IMG/VR virus record: IMGVR_UViG_3300021961_000249
Location: 1 to 38,308 of that record
Strand: one strand, 5' to 3'
Length of the DNA: 38,308 bases
Source: a virus
Below, one piece after another: positions 12,606 to 31,285 of the stretch. How positions within the stretch are numbered: the first letter of the stretch is position 1; each line of letters opens with the position of its first letter. The notes beneath the pieces are model-generated. The model did not search any database, was not told where the DNA came from, and worked only from the letters and a program-made list of their open reading frames with translations. The position numbers and the translations under genes were made by a program.

Positions 12606-14306
12606 TTATACTTGATCCAAATCGGCAACATAAATCTTGCCGTAGAATTCAGGACGTACTACCTTCTTGGCATAACGTGTCATCACACCACGGCGTGGAG
12701 TGAAGTTCACTGGGTCATAGACCAATGGGGTTTGAACGAGTGGGATGTATGGGGCATACACAGCACCGGTTTCGAGGAAGTTATTTCCACGGAAACCAAC
12801 CAAGATGACGTTTTCAGTCATGTATGGGTTCTTGTAGACTTGGAAGCGACTTGCGAAGCTACCAACACGACTTACACCCATTGCAAACTTAGCACTGTCA
12901 CCATCGGTGTTAACAACATATCCTGGGATTGATTCCAAGATGGTTGCTACGTCTGGGGAACAAACCAAGAAGTTTGCACCACCACGGAGAGTCAATTGGT
13001 GAATCTTGTTAGATACACGTTGAATCTTGTTACCCAAGGTTTGGAACCAGGTGCTCTTTACGTAAGCAGTGCGGTTTGTGGTATCGGTTGTGCGATTGAA
13101 GGTGACTGAACCATTGCTGTTTACAGTCTTACCAACGAATTCGGTTCCGATAGCAGCAGACCAAGCTTCAGTGGTTGAGCCTGGAGCAGCATTGATCAAC
13201 ATGTCAAGGATTTCGAGATCGATTTCCATTGATACGTATTCGCTCAAGAGAGCAGTCAATTCGGCTTCGGCATCAATGCTGTGGTAAGCATTCAAGTCTT
13301 GAGCCAATTCTGGGGTCCAGACTGCCTTTAACTTACGAGTCTTAGCAACGATTGGTTCGCTCTTAAGTTCCAAGTTAACTTCTGGAATACCAATATTATC
13401 GACCAATCCGGTTCCTGCACCTGTTCCGGTAGCAGTGGTGGTAAACTTATCTTCGAAATCACCACGGGTTGAATCAGTTGGTTGCTTGTCATAATACAAG
13501 AATACGCTCTTGGTAGCACCTGCGGTTGTATTAGAACCACTTGCTACGAATACGATAGAATAAACTGGAGATGCAAGAGTTCCAGTATTAATTACCTTGG
13601 TAAATTCACCCAAAACGTTTGTTGCGGTCAAGTTTGATCCAGTAAGAGTGAATGAACGAACTGCATTCAAATCGATACTTGCACTTGCATCATTTGCACC
13701 AATTGGGACGGTGAGAGTAAAATAATTACCTCCGCCTACCAATGTGCTTGAAGTATAAGCCGAATCCCATTGGAGATCATTTGCAGAAGCAGTTGCGACA
13801 GTGGCAGTAAAGCCTAATCCAATTTGCTTTGCGCTATATCCATAACGGTTGTTACCGTAGAGACCGTTTACAGCTTCATCGGTAGAACCGAGTTTAGCAT
13901 TACCTGTTCCACCAAACAATGAACCGCTATAAGCATTATCATTGCCAGATGCTGGAACGTTGGTGCCATACTTGAAATCAAGATAGAAGATAAGACCGCT
14001 TGGGAGATTCATTGGTTGAACACTAACGAATTCCTTTGCACTGATTTCAGCGAATACACGACGAACTAATGGAAGAGCTACGCCAGCCCATTGTTCGCTG
14101 TTTGCTGAAGTACCAGTTGAGGTAGCTTCATCAAGAAGTTGTTTTGCTTGGTTTTCCAAAAGAATGGACATGTTGGCTTTTTCTACGCCGTTAAGACCTT
14201 CGAGCAAGCCTGTCTTGTCCCACTTTTGTTGCAATCCACGGGTTTCAGCCATCAATTTGGCTTGTGGATTCATGTTGTTTGTCAATAGACCTTTAATATC
14301 ACTCAT
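12606..14306 (-). CDS. 23: Major capsid protein, gp23-like
   Basis: The 566-residue protein is the T4-like major head subunit (T4 gp23: 521 aa). The N-terminal 60 residues are helical and end in NQAKQLLDE-ATSTG, matching the gp21 cleavage rule (L-x-E, then A); the mature protein should start at Ala61. Next come WAGVALPLVRRVFAEISAKE and VQPMNLPSGLIFYLDFKYGT, hallmarks of the family. The C-terminal part (ELAQDLNAYHSIDAEAELTA, LRGGANFLVCSPDVATILES, FVR-type loops and YAPYIPLVQTPLVYDP) completes the HK97-type fold. An inserted Ser/Thr/Gly-rich region lies at about residues 125-290. GC content and use of C-ending codons are higher than in most neighbours, as expected for the most abundant protein. 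It is followed by the strongest terminator in the window. Confidence 0.97.
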   Translation of the reverse strand: MSDIKGLLTNNMNPQAKLMAETRGLQQKWDKTGLLEGLNGVEKANMSILLENQAKQLLDEATSTGTSANSEQWAGVALPLVRRVFAEISAKEFVSVQPMNLPSGLIFYLDFKYGTNVPASGNDNAYSGSLFGGTGNAKLGSTDEAVNGLYGNNRYGYSAKQIGLGFTATVATASANDLQWDSAYTSSTLVGGGNYFTLTVPIGANDASASIDLNAVRSFTLTGSNLTATNVLGEFTKVINTGTLASPVYSIVFVASGSNTTAGATKSVFLYYDKQPTDSTRGDFEDKFTTTATGTGAGTGLVDNIGIPEVNLELKSEPIVAKTRKLKAVWTPELAQDLNAYHSIDAEAELTALLSEYVSMEIDLEILDMLINAAPGSTTEAWSAAIGTEFVGKTVNSNGSVTFNRTTDTTNRTAYVKSTWFQTLGNKIQRVSNKIHQLTLRGGANFLVCSPDVATILESIPGYVVNTDGDSAKFAMGVSRVGSFASRFQVYKNPYMTENVILVGFRGNNFLETGAVYAPYIPLVQTPLVYDPVNFTPRRGVMTRYAKKVVRPEFYGKIYVADLDQV

Positions 14307-16593: not shown

Positions 16594-16998
16594 TTATTGT
16601 TTATCTGAATCTTTGATTTCAAAATATTTTTCCAAGATACCGCCCATATCTTCATACAATGAAGTCATATGAATATTCTTTTCATGTGCTTCTTTTGCCA
16701 TTTTCTTAAAAGCTTCTGCATGTTTCTTGATTTCAGCAAAATGACGTTTTGCTACATTTGCTTGTGTCCAATCGTTACATTCATTTACAACATATGTTTC
16801 TGCGTATTCAGAAATCTTCTTAAGAGTATCTGCTACTTCCATGATTTTACCATATTCATGAAGTGACTTACCATATTCGTTGTAATTATGAACCAATTCC
16901 GCCAATGCTTTCTTTTCTTCTTTTGACAACTTACGAGGAGCATCATCTGCGGTTGGAAGATTTACTGTTGATTCTACTAGATTCTTTAATTTAATCAT
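16594..16998 (-). CDS. Small helical protein, possible internal head protein
   Basis: A 134-residue, Lys/Glu/Ala-rich, almost wholly helical protein. The N-terminus MIKLKNLVE-STV fits the gp21 cleavage rule (L-V-E at residue 9), as in T4 internal head proteins. The rest (KLSKEEKKALAELVHNYNEY, and KRHFAEIKKHAEAFKKMAKE) looks like a coiled or bundled helix. It lies between the protease and the scaffold gene, where T4 has small core proteins nearby (67 and 68), so a prohead-core role is plausible but unproven. An ATATTTATA element is 4 bases before the ATG. Confidence 0.6.
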   Translation of the reverse strand: MIKLKNLVESTVNLPTADDAPRKLSKEEKKALAELVHNYNEYGKSLHEYGKIMEVADTLKKISEYAETYVVNECNDWTQANVAKRHFAEIKKHAEAFKKMAKEAHEKNIHMTSLYEDMGGILEKYFEIKDSDKQ

Positions 16999-17029: not shown

Positions 17030-17650
17030 TTATTTAATTTCGCCTAAAATATCACGAATAATATTTTCGACCTTTTCCCATTTATTTGTTTCTGGGTTTT
17101 TCACAACGCCTTCTTGAAGACTTACTTGTTCTTCTGGATACATAAATGCACCTCTGGTTGAAGGATTGCTTACGAAATCAAATGCAATAAGTTCGAAGTC
17201 ATCTTGAACTTCATCAGCGGCTTCGTGGACATTTTTACGAACACTGCCCATGCCTCTTGAACTAATACCAAGTCTGATACCAGATGCAAATAATTCTTTC
17301 AAGATATTTCCGCTTGGTGTAGGAAGAACTTCAACTTCTCCTACTAAATTATCACCATCCCAAGACATTCTGGTAACATTGTGACTTACATTCTTTAAGT
17401 TTACAACGCTACTTTCTGGATGGTCTAATTCACCAAGAGCACGACGTTCTTTGATAAAATTTTGTTCATATTTCTTTGATTCTCTTTCCAAAATTTCTCT
17501 TGGATAAATACGTCCATTTTGGTTTTTTGCATTTGCACGTTGAAGAACACCTTTTACCAAGAAAGGTCCGTTTGTCTTCATAGCCTCACTAATTACTTCT
17601 CGGCTAATTTCAAATGACATGCAATCTACAATTAATCTTTTTTCATTCAT
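17030..17650 (-). CDS. 21: Prohead maturation protease, gp21-like
   Basis: The 206-residue protein is the T4-type prohead protease (serine peptidase family S77, herpes-assemblin-like fold; T4 gp21: 212 aa). His77 in ALGELDHPE and the serines at 130-131 in LGISSRG occupy the catalytic His and Ser positions; a conserved Asp lies in IAFDFVSNPST (about residues 155-165). NGRIYPREIL (45-54) is also typical. It cleaves scaffold and capsid proteins after (L/I)-x-E; candidate sites are seen in gp23 and several other proteins here. It starts one base after the upstream stop (TAA-T-ATG) and has AAAGGA about 9 bases before the ATG. Confidence 0.93.
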   Translation of the reverse strand: MNEKRLIVDCMSFEISREVISEAMKTNGPFLVKGVLQRANAKNQNGRIYPREILERESKKYEQNFIKERRALGELDHPESSVVNLKNVSHNVTRMSWDGDNLVGEVEVLPTPSGNILKELFASGIRLGISSRGMGSVRKNVHEAADEVQDDFELIAFDFVSNPSTRGAFMYPEEQVSLQEGVVKNPETNKWEKVENIIRDILGEIK

Positions 17651-17651
17651 A

Positions 17652-18209
17652 TTAAATTCCTTTAGTTGCTACATTTTGTGTAGATGTCGGAACCGGTGCA
17701 GTAGGAGCAACTGTATCTTTTTTCTTTGATGGAACAGTTGCCGCACCTAACTTCTTAATCGTATATGGATATTTAATAAAATATTCACTTTGTTTTTGTT
17801 TGTTAGGTTCACGACCTTTGATAACAACTACATAATTTTCGTAATAAAAATCAATGCTAACGTCATCTACGTTAACGATATAATCCTTCTCAGGTTGACC
17901 ATATCCCTTTGAAGCACGAAATTGTATTTTTTGATTTGCAATTTGACTTAAAATTTTTTCTTTAAATTCATTTTTTACAGTCTCAGTTGCTTGTGACAAT
18001 TTCTTTTGAAAATCTTCTAAATCAAATCCTAAATTATAAGTATTACCTTGACCAGAAGATTGTTTTTGGTCTTGTTTAGGAGATTCTTGAGGAGGTTGTT
18101 GAGGAGTAGTAGGTGCAGCAGCGGGTGCGCCTTGTGATGGAGGATTAACTCCTTTGCCGGCTGGTTGAGGTTGGTCTGCTTCTAAAAATCTCTTCAAAAA
18201 GATAGGCAT
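17652..18209 (-). CDS. Accessory head protein, Pro/Gln-rich N-terminus, unknown
   Basis: A 185-residue protein. The first 12 residues (MPIFLKRFLEAD) are an amphipathic start; residues of about 13-55 are a Pro/Gln/Ala/Ser-rich flexible stretch; the rest is a compact alpha/beta domain (LGFDLEDFQKKLSQATETVK, then VSIDFYYENYVVVIKGREPN), ending in a Pro/Thr-rich tail. Together with the two genes upstream it occupies the portal-to-protease interval where T4 carries 67 and 68, but I see no clear match. Joined to both neighbours by TAA-T-ATG junctions, so cotranslated with gp21. Confidence 0.6.
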   Translation of the reverse strand: MPIFLKRFLEADQPQPAGKGVNPPSQGAPAAAPTTPQQPPQESPKQDQKQSSGQGNTYNLGFDLEDFQKKLSQATETVKNEFKEKILSQIANQKIQFRASKGYGQPEKDYIVNVDDVSIDFYYENYVVVIKGREPNKQKQSEYFIKYPYTIKKLGAATVPSKKKDTVAPTAPVPTSTQNVATKGI

Positions 18210-21665: not shown

Positions 21666-23255
21666 TTACAATAACCACGTAAGATTTTCTGATTTATCGT
21701 TGAATTGTCCCGTTTTCATAATCCATGCATCATGTGCGGAAATTGATTTTGGAGTATAAACTTTATCATTTGCAACTCTAGAAATACCTCCTAACATTGA
21801 TTTATTCAAATCCATAGTTTGTTGTCTGAGTCTCAATGCGGTATCTCTCACCCACAATCCAATACAAAAAGACATAACTAAATCGTCATTATATCCTTTC
21901 ATTGCAACCGCTTTATTACCGTCCCAAATAAATACTGATAGTTCATCTAATAGTCTTTTTGAATAAATAACCAACGATTGTTCTCTGAAATATGTATCCA
22001 ATTTAGATATTAATAACGGTCTTGTTTTCTGACTATTTGTGAAGCCAGGAACCATTCTTTTATCTTCACGATTGTATTTGTTTGTCAATTGACGTTCAAC
22101 ATCAACGTATTGTAAATCTGCACTACTATAAAATGTATTGGGATATTGTCTATCAATTATCTGTTGTAATACTGCCCATCCAATATTATTGTTTTCTACT
22201 ATCAATAAAGCATTGTTATATTCAGTCGCAACACTGACTAACATATTACCATAATCTTTAGTGTTTATTTGACCTCTATACTCGGCCACTTGTGTCAATG
22301 ATTCTACATCAATTACATGAAATGCACTATAATCGGTGCTATCACCTCTTGCAACGTCTGCTGCCACAATATAATTTCTACTATAATCTGGGTATTCCCA
22401 TATCCAATAACCATGGTCTACTCCACGCATTTCAACTGGGTCTTTTGCTTTGGTTTGTTTATAAAATTCAACTAAATGTGACTCAATTACAGTATTTCCT
22501 GATGACAAAAATTCAGTGTCACATTCTTGTGCTGCTCTTTTTGGACCTAATTCATCAGTTTGTCTGTTTCTCCAAGACTGGTCTCTTTCTGGATGTCTAT
22601 CCCACTTTAAACGTATTGTTTTGAACGTATTTTTCTTGGCTTCTGCGTCAACCCACATTTGATGGAAGAAATTACCAACACCATTTGGTGTAGAAAGAAG
22701 AATTGCACGACCACCGGTTGCCATTGTCTGTTGAGCAGATGTCCAAACTTCTTCTGCGTTATCAATAAACGCACATTCATCCATTACAAGTAAATATGAA
22801 CTGAAACCACGAGCACTATCAGCGGCAGAAGAAGCTGCCAAAACTCTAGATTCGTTTTTAAATTTAAGAGAAAGTCTATTATCTTCTACTGTTGGGACTT
22901 TTAACCAACTTGGCAAACTATTATTTGCTAATCTAATTTTTGATACGATTTCTTTTGATGTATTTTGAACTGTAGATAATATTAAAACGTTTTTGCCTGG
23001 ATTAAATATCATAGTCCACAATGCATATGCGGAAACCAATGTAGATATACCCATCTGGCGTGATTTTAAAACTATATTTCTGTCATTATCAATGAAATCT
23101 TGAAGAGTTTCTTCTTGAAATTCATATAATTCAAATGGAATGATGCCTCTTGTTTGATGTTGAATTTTTACGTATTTCTTCATGAAATACATGGGATCAA
23201 CCAAACACTTTTTATACTCTTCTTTGATTATTTCTTTAAGTGTTTTTTCACTCAT
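21666..23255 (-). CDS. 17: Terminase large subunit, gp17-like
   Basis: The 529-residue packaging motor is an N-terminal ATPase plus C-terminal RNase-H-like nuclease. The Walker A-type loop is SRQMGIST (65-72), Walker B is YLLVMDE with Asp159-Glu160, and the coupling motif STP is at 188-190. The nuclease acids are Asp300 (VAADVARGDSTD), Glu354 (LIVENNN) and Asp457/Asp458 (YNDDLVMSF), in the same order as in T4 gp17 (610 aa). It docks on the gp20 portal and pumps DNA into the prohead. It overlaps the upstream zinc-ribbon gene by ATGA. The C-terminal portal-binding tail is shorter than in T4. Confidence 0.97.
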   Translation of the reverse strand: MSEKTLKEIIKEEYKKCLVDPMYFMKKYVKIQHQTRGIIPFELYEFQEETLQDFIDNDRNIVLKSRQMGISTLVSAYALWTMIFNPGKNVLILSTVQNTSKEIVSKIRLANNSLPSWLKVPTVEDNRLSLKFKNESRVLAASSAADSARGFSSYLLVMDECAFIDNAEEVWTSAQQTMATGGRAILLSTPNGVGNFFHQMWVDAEAKKNTFKTIRLKWDRHPERDQSWRNRQTDELGPKRAAQECDTEFLSSGNTVIESHLVEFYKQTKAKDPVEMRGVDHGYWIWEYPDYSRNYIVAADVARGDSTDYSAFHVIDVESLTQVAEYRGQINTKDYGNMLVSVATEYNNALLIVENNNIGWAVLQQIIDRQYPNTFYSSADLQYVDVERQLTNKYNREDKRMVPGFTNSQKTRPLLISKLDTYFREQSLVIYSKRLLDELSVFIWDGNKAVAMKGYNDDLVMSFCIGLWVRDTALRLRQQTMDLNKSMLGGISRVANDKVYTPKSISAHDAWIMKTGQFNDKSENLTWLL

Positions 23256-23966: not shown

Positions 23967-24722
23967 TTATTTTAAAAATGTATTATCAAAAACTTTAATT
24001 GACTTTTTATATGAACTTAAAGTTTCATCATTTGAATTGTCTGTAAATTGCCAATTCCAAAATAATTCGTTCGGAGTATTAAATCCAAAAAACTGAAGCA
24101 CTTCTTTTTGTGTTTGTGTAACATCTTTACCGTTCCAATTTTGTCCCGTCGCAATAAATCCAGAATCAATATCTTTTATAATATTACTTTCTCCTAAACT
24201 TGAATGTCTATTTTCAATCCAAGTTAGTCTTTCTATTAATTTTTGATAATATCCATTGGCTTGACCCCATCTTATACTTGCAAAAAACACCACACAATCA
24301 CTTTCAAATAAATCTTTACTTACTTTCCACAATTCGTCATTCTTATTATTAATACTAGCCCAACAACGATGGTATCCACTTGGATTTTTTTCTTTATCCT
24401 TCAACACAGAATCTTTTGTTCCACAGTGATTTCCCCACTTAGAAGATACATTACCTTCACATGGAAAAATATTTAACTTTGTAGTATCAATAATTGTTAC
24501 TTTTTCTTTTCCTAACATTTCTTGAATCTTAAATGCTAATTGTGTGCTTTTGGCACTATCATCTTTGTGACCACTCCATCTATTGCTAGTAGTCAATAAC
24601 AATACTTTATTTTTACCACGAAGATAATCTATAGTTTTTTTATACTTACGAGCATACATATCCATCTCAGATTCACTGGATGGAATTTTAGCTTCATTTA
24701 ATAAATCAATTAGACTAATCAT
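23967..24722 (-). CDS. Flavodoxin-fold NAD(P)H-dependent FMN reductase-like protein
   Basis: The 251-residue protein has the features of the flavodoxin-like NADPH-dependent FMN reductase superfamily: strand VLLLTTSNRWSGH (40-52) followed by a Ser/Lys-rich phosphate loop (DDSAKSTQLA), VTIIDTTKLNIFPCEGN (75-91), and the second flavin loop VVFFASIRWGQANGYYQKLI (144-163), where others have P-x-x-W-x-N/S-x-x. Cys88, Cys100 and Cys120 lie in the variable region. Residues 1-11, MISLIDLLNE-A, look like a gp21-cleavable capsid-targeting peptide. An ATATTTATA element is 4 bases before the ATG, after the sheath terminator. The electron donor and substrate cannot be predicted. Confidence 0.75.
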   Translation of the reverse strand: MISLIDLLNEAKIPSSESEMDMYARKYKKTIDYLRGKNKVLLLTTSNRWSGHKDDSAKSTQLAFKIQEMLGKEKVTIIDTTKLNIFPCEGNVSSKWGNHCGTKDSVLKDKEKNPSGYHRCWASINNKNDELWKVSKDLFESDCVVFFASIRWGQANGYYQKLIERLTWIENRHSSLGESNIIKDIDSGFIATGQNWNGKDVTQTQKEVLQFFGFNTPNELFWNWQFTDNSNDETLSSYKKSIKVFDNTFLK

Positions 24723-24726
24723 CTTA

Positions 24727-24735
24727 TATAAATAT
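24727..24735 (-). promoter_or_regulatory. ATATTTATA element before the reductase-like gene
   Basis: Exact ATATTTATA on the minus strand, 4 bases before the ATG at 24722 and just past the sheath-gene terminator. Confidence 0.5.
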
Positions 24736-24740
24736 GTTTA

Positions 24741-24773
24741 ATAATAAAAAACCCCACATTTTACTGTGGGGTT
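24741..24773 (-). terminator. Rho-independent terminator of the tail sheath gene
   Basis: The stem AACCCCACA / TGTGGGGTT with a 6-base loop is followed on the minus strand by a run of T residues (TTTTTTATTATT). It lies about 22 bases past the sheath stop codon. Confidence 0.92.
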
Positions 24774-24794
24774 CTGTTTTTATTTTAATTCTTA

Positions 24795-27700
24795 TTAAGC
24801 TCCTGGGAATTGAGCACCAGTTGGCAACACATTGAAATCAAGAACAATGAATTCTGCTGTTCTGGTTGGTTGGATATAGATTTGTCCATAGAGGATGTTT
24901 CTATCAATAATGTCTGGGGTATTATTGGTTTCATCCATCTTAACTTGGAAGGCATACAATCCACTACGTTGTTGAACAGATTCTAAGTATGGGTTGACAA
25001 TACTCAAGAAACGGTTTCTTGTAGCAGCAATGTTTTGTTCGAATACCAAATATCTACTTGTGCTTGCGATGAATTTCTTCAAGGCAATCAACAATCTACG
25101 AACATTGACTCTATCAAGAGCACTTGACTTTTGTTGAAGTGTCTTTTGACCCCATACACAGATACCTTGACCAGGAAATGCTGCGATTGGATTTACACGA
25201 CCTTCATAGAGTGTATCACGTTCACCGTGTGTAGTTCTATCAAGAACTTGAACTGCTTGTGGGATACCACCACGATTCAAACCGGCAGGAGCAAACCATT
25301 CAGCAGCAACATTGTCATTAGCAGCATATACTGAAGGTAATACAACTGAAGGAGGAACACTTATAATCTTATTAGTGTTTGTATCCAAAATACGAACCCA
25401 AGGATAATAGGTTGCCACATAGTTACTATCGATTGTAGATATATCACTTACAGCAGCATCAATCAATCCAACAGATTGTCCACTATTTGGGAACACTACG
25501 TTATCCATTATGTAGAAACAATCTCCACGGGATTCACACATATCGATTGTCAAATCGGCAACATAACTATGTTGTTGATGTAAAATGCCAGGTGTCACAA
25601 TCAAATTGATATCGAATTCATCAGCATTTCCGAGAGCCCCAATTGATTGTTTATAAGCAACTGAACCTGCACTTGAAATGTTTGTACAATCCAATCCTTG
25701 TGTATTGCCTGCTACGATATCACCTCCCAAGTTTATCTTAACGGCTGGTGATTGACCGTCAAATCCACCTTGGAATCCGAATATAAACTTACGCATCTTG
25801 GCATATGATGTTTCGTTCACATCATCAGGATTTGTAGAAGGTATACTTCCACTCAAACTTGCGGCCAAGAATGATCCTGTATTTGAACCTACAATTACAT
25901 TATCCAAAGCAAATCCGACATTTACGCCTGATGATGGATTACTTGGAATTGGAGCAAAATATTGAGCATTATCATTATATACTGGAACACCAGTTGATAC
26001 TGTTGGATATAATCCTACAAGTTCAGTATCAGTTGAAGGAACATCATTAAATACTACACCTGAAGCGTATCTTCCCAAAGCTTGTCCATACAACGAAGCA
26101 TTACTATATTTCATTGTTGGGGCAACTTTAGCAATATCACCTGAGAGAGGAGTATAATATGCTTGGAATCCGTATGGAACAGATGCCACAGGATATTCAT
26201 TTGTGGACATTTCGATTCTAATATATTTACTTACATTAGAATAAATTCCATATTCAACAATCTTGCCAGAATAAGTTATAAAATTATATCTATCACCGAT
26301 TCTGCGAGCAATAAAGTTTGCACTATCTGGATCTAAACTTAAATTGGTGAATGTTTCAAGATACTTAGGACGTTTGTCTGTATCATTATAATCACGAACA
26401 GAAAGTGTGAAAGATCCCCAATCACTTCCTGGCACTGAACCTGCCAATTTAACGTCGCTGATTTCAATCTTATACAATTTATTAGCATTTGTTCCATCAG
26501 TTAATGTATGGATTTTAAATAAATCGTGTCTTGTTGTTGTGCCATCAACAGCTGCAATCTTTTGAGAAACAACATATGGTGTATAAGCATTAGTCAAACT
26601 GAATTGACTATCACCATCAGCAGGATTAAACGAATTTGCATCAGTGAAATTTAATGGATTTCCACCACCAAACGTATTGGAATTTGGAAGAACTGCAATT
26701 TTAATTCCATATTTTGTTGGATTTGCAGCAACTTTTGCCATCGAATCTTCAAATGCTTTATAAAGATATGCATTTACAGTGGAATCAGTGGTTTTTGCTG
26801 ATTTTTGGAATACATTTGTAATATATTTTTGGTTTGCCTTATCCAATGAGAATTCATAGATACCGTATCTACCAGCAGAACTACCGCTCAAATTTAAATA
26901 ATAATTTGATTGTATGCTTGAACTGTTAGAACTCAAAATCGAAGTCAAACTTAAACTTGAACCACTAAATCCAGGAGATTGTAAATCGGTTCCTGGTGAA
27001 TGATTTGTTGTATCAGCCAAAACTGCCAACAAAATTTGATTTGCATTTGATTGTGAAGTCCAATTTCCACAACTATCTACACTTGATGATCCAGCAGAAG
27101 TAAATGCACCGGTGAATTTACCAAATGATCCTGATACTAAACCTTCCAATCTAAATACTGGATCTACGCAGTTATCTTTATATGAAATAAATTTTGCAGA
27201 TTTTAATGTTACACTAGTAAATGGTTCATCGGTTCCATATACAATTTTTTCAGTCAAAGATCCTGTGACTGAAAAGTTTTGTAAACCGTAATTCAATAAT
27301 TCGGCTGCAGTCATTGATGATGCTGTAGGAAGTGTGGTTGATCCTGCCCAACTCATTGTAATGCTTGTATAACCATATCCAAAAGATGGAATATTTATAG
27401 ATGATCCTGCAAAAAGTTGACTGCCACTTGGAGATGTCGCTGATGTAGCAGTTCCTGAACCAGCTGCAAATGTAAATATAAATGAAGAAGTAGGAATGTT
27501 CGCAGTGAATGTTACACTATCTATATAAGTTGCGCCAGTAGCAGTTGCTGTCAACGAAGAGAATCCAGCAAAAAATGAACCACTTGATAATGATCCTGAT
27601 GGAATAAAGAAAGAAGACCCGGTAACTAACGCACCAGCGTCAATATTTCTAGTATAACTTCCTGATTCTGCATAAATTGCAATTGGATATCTTTGATCGT

Positions 27701-27998
27701 AACCAGTTAAACCGCCAACGCGGCAAACAGTTACGAATCCTTTTTCGTTAAGATATTCTTTGGCGGTGTATGGTCCATAATAAGTTCCATCAGCAATACC
27801 AAACTTTTCTTCTAAATCAGCAGTGTTGGTAACCAAAGTTGGGCTAAATCCTGGACCTTTTGCGAACGGTGCAACGACTACGGCTCCAATATCAGCTACA
27901 CCTTGAACAATGCCTGATAAATCATTTTCTCTTGTAAAGACTCCTGGGCTAACAATAGTGTTAACAGGACTAAATCTTCCACCTTCTTGTATTGGCAT
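24795..27998 (-). CDS. 18: Tail sheath protein, gp18-like, oversized
   Basis: A 1067-residue contractile tail sheath subunit (T4 gp18: 659 aa). The N-terminus (NTIVSPGVFTRENDLSGI, then GAVVVAPFAKGPGFSPTLVT and EKFGIADGTYYGPYTAKEYL) and the C-terminus (GQGICVWGQKTLQQKSSALD, VNVRRLLIALKKFIASTSRY, FEQNIAATRNRFLSIVNPYL, and ending FIVLDFNVLPTGAQFPGA) are classic sheath regions that build the inter-subunit arms. The middle, from about residue 110 to 700, is a Ser/Thr/Gly-rich expansion probably exposed on the tail surface. It has a good ribosome site (AAAGGAAA, about 9 bases before the ATG). ATATTTATA lies 39 bases upstream, so the leader is conventional. In T4 the tube gene 19 follows 18; here it does not. 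Confidence 0.95.
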   Translation of the reverse strand: MPIQEGGRFSPVNTIVSPGVFTRENDLSGIVQGVADIGAVVVAPFAKGPGFSPTLVTNTADLEEKFGIADGTYYGPYTAKEYLNEKGFVTVCRVGGLTGYDQRYPIAIYAESGSYTRNIDAGALVTGSSFFIPSGSLSSGSFFAGFSSLTATATGATYIDSVTFTANIPTSSFIFTFAAGSGTATSATSPSGSQLFAGSSINIPSFGYGYTSITMSWAGSTTLPTASSMTAAELLNYGLQNFSVTGSLTEKIVYGTDEPFTSVTLKSAKFISYKDNCVDPVFRLEGLVSGSFGKFTGAFTSAGSSSVDSCGNWTSQSNANQILLAVLADTTNHSPGTDLQSPGFSGSSLSLTSILSSNSSSIQSNYYLNLSGSSAGRYGIYEFSLDKANQKYITNVFQKSAKTTDSTVNAYLYKAFEDSMAKVAANPTKYGIKIAVLPNSNTFGGGNPLNFTDANSFNPADGDSQFSLTNAYTPYVVSQKIAAVDGTTTRHDLFKIHTLTDGTNANKLYKIEISDVKLAGSVPGSDWGSFTLSVRDYNDTDKRPKYLETFTNLSLDPDSANFIARRIGDRYNFITYSGKIVEYGIYSNVSKYIRIEMSTNEYPVASVPYGFQAYYTPLSGDIAKVAPTMKYSNASLYGQALGRYASGVVFNDVPSTDTELVGLYPTVSTGVPVYNDNAQYFAPIPSNPSSGVNVGFALDNVIVGSNTGSFLAASLSGSIPSTNPDDVNETSYAKMRKFIFGFQGGFDGQSPAVKINLGGDIVAGNTQGLDCTNISSAGSVAYKQSIGALGNADEFDINLIVTPGILHQQHSYVADLTIDMCESRGDCFYIMDNVVFPNSGQSVGLIDAAVSDISTIDSNYVATYYPWVRILDTNTNKIISVPPSVVLPSVYAANDNVAAEWFAPAGLNRGGIPQAVQVLDRTTHGERDTLYEGRVNPIAAFPGQGICVWGQKTLQQKSSALDRVNVRRLLIALKKFIASTSRYLVFEQNIAATRNRFLSIVNPYLESVQQRSGLYAFQVKMDETNNTPDIIDRNILYGQIYIQPTRTAEFIVLDFNVLPTGAQFPGA

Positions 27999-28084: not shown

Positions 28085-31000
28085 TTAAATAAAGGAAACC
28101 TTACTAAACCCATTTTCTTTACGAATTTCTATTCTACTATCAACCATATCTTTCATGCTATCCAAATGACTTACAATCCATACAAAGTCAAAGTTTGTCT
28201 TCAAAAAGGCAAACAAAGTGCTCATAGATGATAAATTATCGGCATCAGCGCAGCCAAATCCTTCATCTATAGCGATAAAGTTAGGTCTAGGCAGATTGCT
28301 AATATTGATTAATGCGACTCTTATAGCCAACGAACTTACAAATTTTTCTAAACCACTTGATAATTCCAATGGCCATTTTTTGTCTTCATAGTTAATAAAA
28401 GTGCTTACATTTTTACCATCTGTTTGTAAAGATATATTAAATTCTACTATTTGATTCAAGATATTATTAACTTCTTTTTCAATAGTAGGTAGTGCTTGAC
28501 TAATCAATTCGTATGGAATACCGTCTCTACCTATAGCTGAGTTATACAATTCGTATGCTTCAGAGACGGTTTCCAACGATTTTGTTTCTTCAATAGTCTT
28601 TTCAATCTGAGACTTTTGGTCAATGGAAGAGTTAAGATTAGACTTTAAATTTATAATTTCCGTATTCTTTTGTTTAATTTTACTGTCAATCAATTTAATA
28701 CTTGATTTTATAGTTTCAATAGTTGATTTAACAATATTATTACTTTCGATATTATCTTTTTGTTTATTAAATCTATCAATCTTTTCCACGATTGTATTTA
28801 ATTTAGTTTCTTCTTGTGAAATTTTATTTTCAGTCGAAACAATTGAATTATTAAACTTGTTTAACTTATTTTCGATATTAGTTTTATTAATTTTAATATC
28901 TGTATACTTTTTATATTCGACTTCAATATTGCCATATCCATTAATTTTGTTTTTCAATTCATTGTATTTTTGAAAAACAATTAACGCATTTGATTTGTCT
29001 TTTTCTAAATCTTCTTTGGTTTTTATGGCATCTTTTACAAACACATTGTTTGTGCAATATTCACAATTTGGGTCATATTTGTGTTGTTCAAGAGTCTTTA
29101 ATTTTTCTAATTTGGTATTGACAATGATTTTGAAACGTTCTATTTCATTTTCTTTGGCAGTAAATTCTTTTTTAACCAAAACATATTCATCATATTTGTC
29201 GCTGATATTATCAATCAGATATGATTTTTCTAAATCTATAGAACTAGACAATTCAGTCTCTATTTTTTTAGATTCGTCTTTGAAATAATCAAGTTCTTTT
29301 ACCAATTTCTGTATAGTATTCTTACAAGAAATTTCAGCTTGAGTCAAAACCGTCAAATCTCCAATATCATTATCAACTGAGATAAGTTTTTTTGTTTCTT
29401 CGAGCAAAGAATTGTTTTTAATGTCTCTATCAGACATTAATTGTTCTAAATTTTCACTTTCATTCTTTATTAGACTTGATGAAACTTCAATTATATTTGT
29501 CAACTCATTCAATTTCTGAGTATAATCATTTTTCTTGAAATTTCTGAGTAAAACATTAATTTCTTTGATTTTTTCTTGTGATGTAGATGACAATTTATCA
29601 AAAATATCAAGTCCCATAAATTGTGCCAACAGTTCTTTTCTTTCTGTTTGACCCATGTCAATAAAGGAGCCGGTTTTATTATTTTGAATACTCAAAACTG
29701 TCAAAATAAAATCATCATAGGTGCCTACATAATCTCTGATAATGTCATTTGTGCTTCTACGAGCCTCACCGTTGAGTTCAATTACTTTACCACCCTCTTC
29801 TTTCCAGAATTTAACATCAACTTTAACATTACCTTTTTTATCGGCATTTCCTACTCTTTCGATGAAGAAGTCTACACCATTTACTTCAAAATTAAATTTA
29901 CATCTAAATGTCATTTTTTGAGTATTCAAAACATGAGATGCTTTAAATGCCCGGTCACATTTATCAAAAATACAAAATGATAATGCGGATAAAATACTTG
30001 ATTTTCCTGCTGCATTTGACGCAAATAATCCAATAACATTATGCATCTTGGTAAAATCTATAACATTACCTTCACCATAACTAAACATATTGTCAAATTC
30101 AAAAATCTTTGGTTTCCATCTAATATTTTTGACAATTTGTTCTTTGCCTAAAGACGCATTCAATTCTTTATTGATGGTATAAACTTTTTCTAACACTTCT
30201 TTATCATCAATATCAAATTTATGTTTGATATAATCCGTGATAAGTTTATTTTGATAGTCTACATCAACGATGCTATTAATATTGAGATTAGTATTGTCAA
30301 TAATATTTTTACTTTGAGTAACTAAACTATCAACCCTAACATATGAAATATCCACCACTTCAGATATTTCTCTGATTTTAGACAATACGGATTTAACTTC
30401 TGTGGCAACACTCTCACAACACTTCATTCTAAGTCTGACCTTCTTAGGAATGTCAGAAATATCAGTTGCAAGTTTGCCTTTATTTACATCTACAGTATAA
30501 AATCCATAATCATTAGGAACTTCAAAGTGCTTGAATGCCTTTGTTTTCAAATCCCAATATACAAATCCATGTCCTTTTAGTTCTTCACCATGAGATTGTT
30601 GGATTGTAGACCCTGCATACACAATCACAGGTTTTTCTTCAATATTGTTGTATTGTTGAAGTATTTGATAACGGTGAATATCACCAAGAAGAGCGATTTG
30701 ATGACCATCAAACAATTCGTTTGTAATTGTTCTATTAGACACTTTGTAACCAACATCAGTAATTGCGTCATTTACAGCGCCATGAAACAATACAACATTA
30801 TAACGTGTTTCATTTAGATAGTTTTTGGGAATATCTTTGAACTTTACATATTTTTCATGTTCATCAAATATAGAAAAATGATTGAAAAGAATATCACCGA
30901 GTATAAAAATGCCAGATTCTTTTAGATAGAAGAGGTTTTCGTGATTTAATGCGTCTACAATTGGTGTTAGACTGTCCAATCTATTTTTATTCGCCAAAGT

Positions 31001-31285
31001 TGCATCATGATTACCCGCAATCAATACAGTAGGTCTTCTATCTGCAAGATTTTGAAGAAAATCAGAAGCAGTTTTGACACATTCTGGACTCAAATCACTT
31101 TTACTATGAAACAAATCACCCAATACGGCAACCACAGTTGACTCTGGTGTTTTTTCTATTGCTTTATAGAGCTTCTGAAATACTTCATTATATTCATCAT
31201 GTCTTTTTGTAAGACGAATATGAACATCTGCGATATGAAATATGTTTGTAAACTCCTTTACACTACATGATAATTTTGTTGCCAT
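28085..31285 (-). CDS. Fused SbcD-SbcC (gp47-gp46) recombination nuclease
   Basis: One 1066-residue polypeptide carrying both halves of the Mre11-Rad50-type complex, which T4 encodes as gp47 (339 aa) and gp46 (560 aa). Residues 1-250 are the calcineurin-like nuclease: D20-x-H22, GDLFHSK (D57, H60), GNHD (91-94), H168 and GDIH (201-204). From about 388 begins the ATPase: the Walker A-like ASNAAGKSS (422-430), in which the usual first Gly is Ala, then long coiled coils with a zinc hook C-x-x-C at 741-744 and the SSGLEKFVSSLAIRVAL signature near 976. Walker B is NFIAIDEGFG with D1007/E1008, and the last part has IVSHL. It resects DNA ends for recombination-dependent replication. It starts one base after the primase stop. 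Confidence 0.93.
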   Translation of the reverse strand: MATKLSCSVKEFTNIFHIADVHIRLTKRHDEYNEVFQKLYKAIEKTPESTVVAVLGDLFHSKSDLSPECVKTASDFLQNLADRRPTVLIAGNHDATLANKNRLDSLTPIVDALNHENLFYLKESGIFILGDILFNHFSIFDEHEKYVKFKDIPKNYLNETRYNVVLFHGAVNDAITDVGYKVSNRTITNELFDGHQIALLGDIHRYQILQQYNNIEEKPVIVYAGSTIQQSHGEELKGHGFVYWDLKTKAFKHFEVPNDYGFYTVDVNKGKLATDISDIPKKVRLRMKCCESVATEVKSVLSKIREISEVVDISYVRVDSLVTQSKNIIDNTNLNINSIVDVDYQNKLITDYIKHKFDIDDKEVLEKVYTINKELNASLGKEQIVKNIRWKPKIFEFDNMFSYGEGNVIDFTKMHNVIGLFASNAAGKSSILSALSFCIFDKCDRAFKASHVLNTQKMTFRCKFNFEVNGVDFFIERVGNADKKGNVKVDVKFWKEEGGKVIELNGEARRSTNDIIRDYVGTYDDFILTVLSIQNNKTGSFIDMGQTERKELLAQFMGLDIFDKLSSTSQEKIKEINVLLRNFKKNDYTQKLNELTNIIEVSSSLIKNESENLEQLMSDRDIKNNSLLEETKKLISVDNDIGDLTVLTQAEISCKNTIQKLVKELDYFKDESKKIETELSSSIDLEKSYLIDNISDKYDEYVLVKKEFTAKENEIERFKIIVNTKLEKLKTLEQHKYDPNCEYCTNNVFVKDAIKTKEDLEKDKSNALIVFQKYNELKNKINGYGNIEVEYKKYTDIKINKTNIENKLNKFNNSIVSTENKISQEETKLNTIVEKIDRFNKQKDNIESNNIVKSTIETIKSSIKLIDSKIKQKNTEIINLKSNLNSSIDQKSQIEKTIEETKSLETVSEAYELYNSAIGRDGIPYELISQALPTIEKEVNNILNQIVEFNISLQTDGKNVSTFINYEDKKWPLELSSGLEKFVSSLAIRVALINISNLPRPNFIAIDEGFGCADADNLSSMSTLFAFLKTNFDFVWIVSHLDSMKDMVDSRIEIRKENGFSKVSFI

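Follow-up and report, generated by a model that had tools for sequence, protein, structure and literature searches.

A leader-tagged flavodoxin-fold protein as a candidate injected head protein of freshwater T4-like phages

The window analysed here is the whole of IMGVR_UViG_3300021961_000249 (38,308 bases), from a T4-like myovirus of freshwater, and one of its late genes quite probably encodes a T4-type internal head protein that carries a flavoenzyme as cargo and is injected at infection. The 251-aa product opens with MISLIDLLNEAKIPSSE, and its N-terminus reads MISLIDLLNE-AKIPSSE; owing to in-frame stops upstream of the ORF, no much longer start is possible. Sequence-level support for this reading covers the leader, the selection on it, its resemblance to a capsid cut site, the lack of it in cellular homologues, its presence on other phage proteins and the predicted fold of the body. 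The features discussed below are collected in Table 1.

In the proposed explanation, a prokaryote-derived flavodoxin-fold (FMN-reductase-like) gene would have been fitted with the 10-residue capsid-targeting leader of the phage itself. The protein would be expressed late, together with the structural genes; the leader would dock it into the prohead core, and the gp21-type protease would cut after E10 (LNE-A), the flavoenzyme being retained in the head and reaching the host along with the DNA. Inside the cell it would probably act at once, before phage gene expression, and may pass electrons of NAD(P)H on to an acceptor such as a quinone or flavin, in a host-takeover or protective function. Candidate purposes would be protection against oxidative or quinone stress, a change in the NAD(P)H pool, and counter-defence, among which the data favour none.

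Table 1. Features of the window that bear on the leader-tagged flavodoxin-fold protein
Feature	Positions	Strand	Basis
Leader-tagged flavodoxin-fold protein gene, 251 aa	23967..24722	minus	ORF; >200 homologous stretches in IMG/VR
Leader MISLIDLLNE, codons 1-10; predicted prohead-protease cut between E10 and A11	24693..24722	minus	conservation
Variable linker and helix, residues 11-36	24615..24692	minus	pN/pS 0.43 (synonymous sites near saturation); outside matched fold
Flavodoxin-fold domain, residues 37-251	23970..24614	minus	model and fold matches
TSNRWSGHKDDSAKST, presumed FMN-phosphate loop, residues 45-60	24543..24590	minus	conservation; role from fold position
Poorly modelled insertion, residues 86-127, with cysteines C88, C100 and C120	24342..24467	minus	conservation
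TATTTATA, probable element of a late promoter, 4 nt from the flavoenzyme ATG	24727..24734	minus	recurrence upstream of gene starts
Terminator-like hairpin, sheath transcript vs flavoenzyme gene	24748..24775	minus	11-bp stem and T-rich tail
Tail sheath	24795..27998	minus	phrog_23, 8.7e-68
Terminase large subunit	21666..23255	minus	phrog_2, 1.4e-53
185-aa presumptive head-core protein, MPIFLKRFLE-AD, adjoining the protease	17652..18209	minus	blastp to G013 homologue
Prohead protease (gp21 type), presumed leader-cutting enzyme	17030..17650	minus	phrog_207, 1.1e-51
134-aa protein encoded between the protease and the core gene, related N-terminus MIKLKNLVE-S	16594..16998	minus	TATTTATA 4 nt ahead of ATG
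Major capsid protein (gp23 type)	12606..14306	minus	phrog_138, 2e-71

The late genes on the minus strand follow the order sheath, flavodoxin-fold gene, 226-aa gene, terminase, portal, core-type genes, gp21-type protease, scaffold-like gene and gp23-type capsid gene. The flavodoxin-fold gene is therefore separated from the large terminase by the 226-aa gene only and has the sheath gene on its other side. A sequence-only reading of the window had placed it between the sheath and the packaging genes, in the late structural region, and this is borne out by the phrog_23 and phrog_2 neighbours. Elsewhere in the window, a 1066-aa ORF (28085-31285, minus) resembles, by eye, a fusion of gp47 (a nuclease, SbcD-like) and gp46 (SbcC/Rad50-like). 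Most of the minus-strand genes have starts without a Shine-Dalgarno-like sequence; the genome being AT-rich, this points to a host of the Bacteroidota type.

The top-ranked 8-mers of the upstream regions in the window are TATTTATA and its one-base shift ATATTTAT. Copies of TATTTATA stand no more than 45 nt upstream of gene starts in 9/18 cases in the window, those of the portal and the sheath included, with a binomial p for this placement that takes no account of AT-rich intergenic DNA. On the coding strand this putative promoter, TATTTATA, is the reverse complement of the T4 late motif TATAAATA. Sites in the window include 6238, 12527, 17010, 19690, 21657, 24734 and 28045 on the minus strand and 15534 on the plus strand, often merely 4-8 nt ahead of an ATG, a spacing at which transcripts would be nearly leaderless. 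Terminator-like hairpins of the type that lies ahead of the flavoenzyme gene were found at two sites, and shuffled sequences give 0.0. Given this hairpin and a TATTTATA element common to late genes, the flavoenzyme gene is probably served by a late promoter of its own.

Conservation of the leader was assessed in a set of group-A phage proteins (54 distinct sequences, weighted at 90% identity). In this set L4 and E10 are invariant (100%), L occupies position 8 in 93%, either L or F is found at position 7, and position 11 holds A in 78%, whereas positions 5 and 9 vary, as does the linker; all 54 have [LI]xE inside the first 16 residues. A search of relatives for this N-terminus had been proposed in the sequence-only reading. 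Estimates of pN/pS, in which synonymous sites are near saturation, are lowest at leader positions 4, 7, 8 and 10 (0.15), against 0.53 for the rest of the leader, 0.43 for the linker and 0.22 for the domain. Where homologues have one residue inserted (LLLQE-A), LxE-A is retained. From these comparisons, the leader is real and under selection. In T4 IPIII, residues 1-10 are enough for packaging; targeting depends on positions 4 and 7, and processing on positions 8 and 10 (PMC9026906).

A site similar to the end of the leader is found in the major capsid protein of the same phage (LLDE-ATS), where the cut-site-like LLDE-A occupies residues 57-61 (14124-14138). The corresponding column is [LI][LIV]xE in 31/31 relatives, with A, S or, in one case, V as the next residue, and five of the 31 have LLNEA itself at the capsid site. 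The presumed cutting enzyme, a gp21-type protease (phrog_207), was detected in the window and in all group-A and group-C records tested; no match to it was found in the group-B contigs, which are fragmentary records. With positions 4, 7, 8 and 10 constrained, a pattern shared with the capsid cut site of this phage and modularity across proteins, the proposal of a capsid-targeting-type N-terminus is upheld. A strict T4 preference for A, G or S after the cut fails in the diverged homologue L203, in which P1' is R, and in the 250-kb record G011, in which the leaders have varied residues after Glu. The G011 capsid protein (L255:8683-10419) has LIDE-V as its cut site, not E-A or E-S, and, as judged from the capsid site and the leaders, the specificity of the protease may vary together with that of the sites it cuts.

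The body of the protein was modelled with AlphaFold using 20 homologues (mean pLDDT 68, pTM 0.71), replacing a weaker model built from 15 sequences, and a flavodoxin fold extends from about residue 36 to 251. Flavin- or flavodoxin-type proteins make up all 50 of the 50 best solved-structure matches listed, the first-ranked by VIA-align being RosB (5mji; Z 12.8, 179 residues, 3.6 A, 15% identity). A RosB-like reaction was considered and dropped, as 15% identity to the top fold match gives no basis for it. Within the presumed FMN-phosphate loop, S46, R48, K58 and S59 reach 95% identity or more over phage and cellular homologues together, and the same holds for S149, R151, W152, G153, Q154, N195 and W196. 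The three cysteines of the insertion are also at least 95% identical in both sets, and pLDDT is below 50 over most of the insertion's length.

Sequence profiles place the protein less firmly. The window protein has no match to PF03358 (FMN_red) and is below every curated family cut-off; the best family member is a diverged phage homologue (E 3e-4, 20.8 bits, against a cut-off of 24), and a cellular homologue gives E 4e-4. PHROGs and NCBIfam searches returned nothing usable for the window protein, and a first-profile sequence search of a solved-structure library gave no match. The claim of an NAD(P)H-dependent FMN reductase thus stands in part: the moderate-confidence model has a flavodoxin fold with conserved presumed FMN-binding loops, as the structure prediction suggested for that reading was meant to reveal, and the curated family cut-off is not reached. 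The assignment as an NAD(P)H-dependent FMN reductase is therefore one at the level of fold; the presumed loop residues are conserved, and the protein may bind FMN and oxidise NAD(P)H.

Over 200 homologous stretches of the gene were identified in IMG/VR, and a search of 50,697 phage records gave no homologue, hence no cultivated relative that has the gene. A first scan of cellular genomes also gave none; a second, with a deeper alignment, gave 38 cellular loci with the enzyme body at 50-65% identity, in Patescibacteria, Woesearchaeota, Pacearchaeota, Sulfurovum and others, in gene surroundings that look chromosomal. Two of these (L299 and L297) are within 5 kb of photolyase genes, but a photolyase-linked role was rejected, as this is 2/38 cellular loci and 0 phage loci. 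Cellular homologues with a readable start begin downstream of the leader columns (e.g., MEKRIAAERKK and MTLDDEQDYKN). Homologues without the peptide, which the sequence-only reading held would count against it, do therefore exist in cells; the phage homologues carry the peptide or an alternative leader, a distribution that is informative about the tag and does not refute it.

The same leader is found on unrelated genes in the gap between sheath and terminase. These include a 344-aa protein (MIRLNNILSEVIQE-GG; leader MIRLNNILSE), a 173-aa protein (MISLTDILNE), a protein with a DnaJ domain and another of 234 aa; among these gap leaders is MIRLKDLLLE, on a different protein. Longer variants, ending in LNE-A and LNE-G, are present on a 990-aa DUF6267 protein and a 427-aa protein; no mention of DUF6267 was found in the literature searched, which was largely without subscription journals. 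The 344-aa protein has a KxDG-type sequence and, by eye only, resembles nucleotidyltransferases. In L006 (744-1997), a fusion ORF continues in frame from the 173-aa leader-bearing protein into NISLNDLLLE, the leader of the flavoenzyme, and would seem to have arisen by recombination between two shared leaders. A 958-aa neighbour of the flavoenzyme in L218 (5734-8607) has an N-terminal region ending in ILSE-S and a cytidylyltransferase or NMN adenylyltransferase-like domain (phrog_3462, 3e-7), and is a possible NAD-related cargo.

In a second phage group (L373-L378), the same enzyme has another leader (MNLQENIIRIRQMMVSEE and similar). In G022 (319 genes), this second leader type starts four consecutive unrelated genes, the flavoenzyme included, and no others. 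The run is seen in L383 (G022:84156-86523) and L376, the common leader being MNLQENIxRI..., probably a second capsid-targeting leader type. The two phage groups are well separated in the tree (94/93 and 100/99), and L368 and L371, sisters of group B, have a leader of the group-A type (MIKLKDLLSE). L367 (leader MKLLNLIEE) is placed among the cellular rows on a long branch. For this pattern, exchange of leaders or their independent gain is the simplest reading. Since the tag is absent in cells, is found on unrelated neighbours, and is replaced in a second lineage by that lineage's own leader, it follows the phage and not the enzyme.

Leaders are not confined to the gap. In G013, the homologue of the 185-aa presumptive core protein (blastp 38% over 98 aa, 1e-23) starts with MISLVKLLSE; the 185-aa protein is encoded beside the protease, a position in which T4 has core genes, and the leader therefore provides independent support for a head role. 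In G011, about ten tagged proteins are mostly clustered at 72-87 kb. Tagged proteins of this record include one with a PARP catalytic domain (1e-6), one that combines GNAT and lysozyme parts (4e-11) and several short ones weakly similar to KptA, and a 2H phosphoesterase passing the Acb1 anti-CBASS model (5e-7) has a looser match (MIHIAKLVTE). At least eight small genes in L254:12646-17449 and L255:4620-7108 of this record have MIKLxxIIxE-type starts, and this run, which includes the Acb1/2H phosphoesterase, the GNAT-lysozyme fusion and the weak ADP-ribosyltransferase-like (KptA) proteins, is a candidate island of injected effectors.

The leader on the presumptive core protein could also be taken to mean that it docks proteins to the head core or structural assembly, and that the enzyme serves assembly, through redox or cysteine chemistry, instead of being delivered to the host; the three near-invariant cysteines would suit such a role. 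However, the gene is absent from a relative in which the gap between sheath and terminase is empty (L090), which makes it dispensable for assembly, and the other leader bearers look like host-acting effectors. T4 proteins with such leaders (the IPs and Alt) enter the cell (PMC9026906), and an assembly function is accordingly held to be unlikely.

The specificity of the leader was assessed against internal methionines. The strict form M..L..[LIF][LIVF].[ED] is present at 9/365 gene starts from five phage contigs vs 0/1373 internal methionines (p=7e-7), and E or D occupies position 10 in 20/34 of the surveyed M..L starts with hydrophobic residues at 7 and 8 vs 5/75 of the others (p=9e-9), both p-values being indicative because related contigs are not independent. 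In G011, the leader was found at 10/344 genes, two of these at alternative starts, vs 0/1119 internal methionines. The motif [hydrophobic]2-x-E-[AGS] near the N-terminus is by itself weakly enriched; the discriminating signal is the position-specific leader, not this simple motif.

These counts bear on a second alternative, in which the protein is an ordinary auxiliary metabolic flavoenzyme whose N-terminus is a translation-friendly, AT-rich start without a targeting role. The flavodoxin fold, the existence of cellular homologues and the AT-rich genome would be in keeping with this, as would the location of the G011 copy, which is not among the head genes and is separated from that of the protease by about 73 kb. 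However, the constrained residues are E10 and positions 4, 7 and 8, the acidic residue at 10 is tied to the M..L..hh pattern, and the leader is absent in cells and clustered on adjacent phage genes, so that we consider this alternative quite unlikely. That the leader is an amphipathic peptide for some other site, such as the host membrane or a cytoplasmic partner, is highly improbable: a short amphipathic helix is predicted at residues 4-8 (low confidence), but the invariant acidic E10, mostly followed by A, gives a pattern identical to the capsid-protein cut site, and the presumptive head-core protein has the leader as well.

Beyond the injected flavoenzyme, it is possible that interchangeable leaders in freshwater T4-like phages, of at least two types on one flavoenzyme, are a general delivery tag for head-loaded enzymes that strike host metabolism and immunity, a broader proposal for which we judge the chances to be evenly balanced. 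The panel of such enzymes would comprise the flavin reductase, a PARP-like ADP-ribosyltransferase, an Acb1/2H phosphoesterase, the GNAT-lysozyme protein, a DnaJ protein and possibly ligase-like proteins. Co-injected proteins are known for very few phages, and a conserved tag bearing the cut-site signature of the phage's protease marks candidates in unculturable genomes; if the proposal is true, injected phage repertoires could be read straight from metagenomes. The tag would also flag counter-immunity candidates such as the Acb1-like (anti-CBASS) protein, and a redox flavoenzyme as head cargo, if true, would add a new kind of activity to that known from injected proteins such as T4 Alt. No report of a flavin reductase as phage head cargo was found in the literature searched, largely without subscription journals.

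The delivery principle is already T4's, and what would be new here is the predicted flavoenzyme cargo, the leader sequence type, the apparent exchange of leaders on one enzyme and the tagged repertoire of uncultivated phages. As in T4 IPII and IPIII, both of which open with MKTYQEFIAE-A in the T4 record, there is a 10-residue leader with key positions 4, 7, 8 and 10 and a (here predicted) E10-Ala site, on unrelated bodies. The leader is M[IV]xLxDLLxE here and MKTYQEFIAE there, the body is a flavodoxin-fold domain here and a small internal protein there, and the phage is uncultivated and distant from T4. T4 Alt, an ADP-ribosyltransferase, is carried in the head, is injected and has a prohead-protease site near its N-terminus (PMC9026906); the window protein would likewise be an enzyme as head cargo with such a site, whereas the bodies are different enzyme types, with redox flavoprotein chemistry predicted here. 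The ejection proteins of the giant phages SPN3US and phiKZ are head-packaged and cut after x-x-E by a relative of gp21 (PMC5694885), but most have propeptides of more than 100 aa and A-x-E or S-x-E motifs, unlike the window leader. Finally, the body resembles FMN_red (PF03358), RosB, ArsH, MdaB, AzoR and NQO2 in its fold (36-251) and its conserved presumed flavin-loop positions, and differs from FMN_red and related reductases in being below the Pfam cut-off, in its 10-18% identity, in the extra Cys-rich insertion at 86-127 and in the phage leader.
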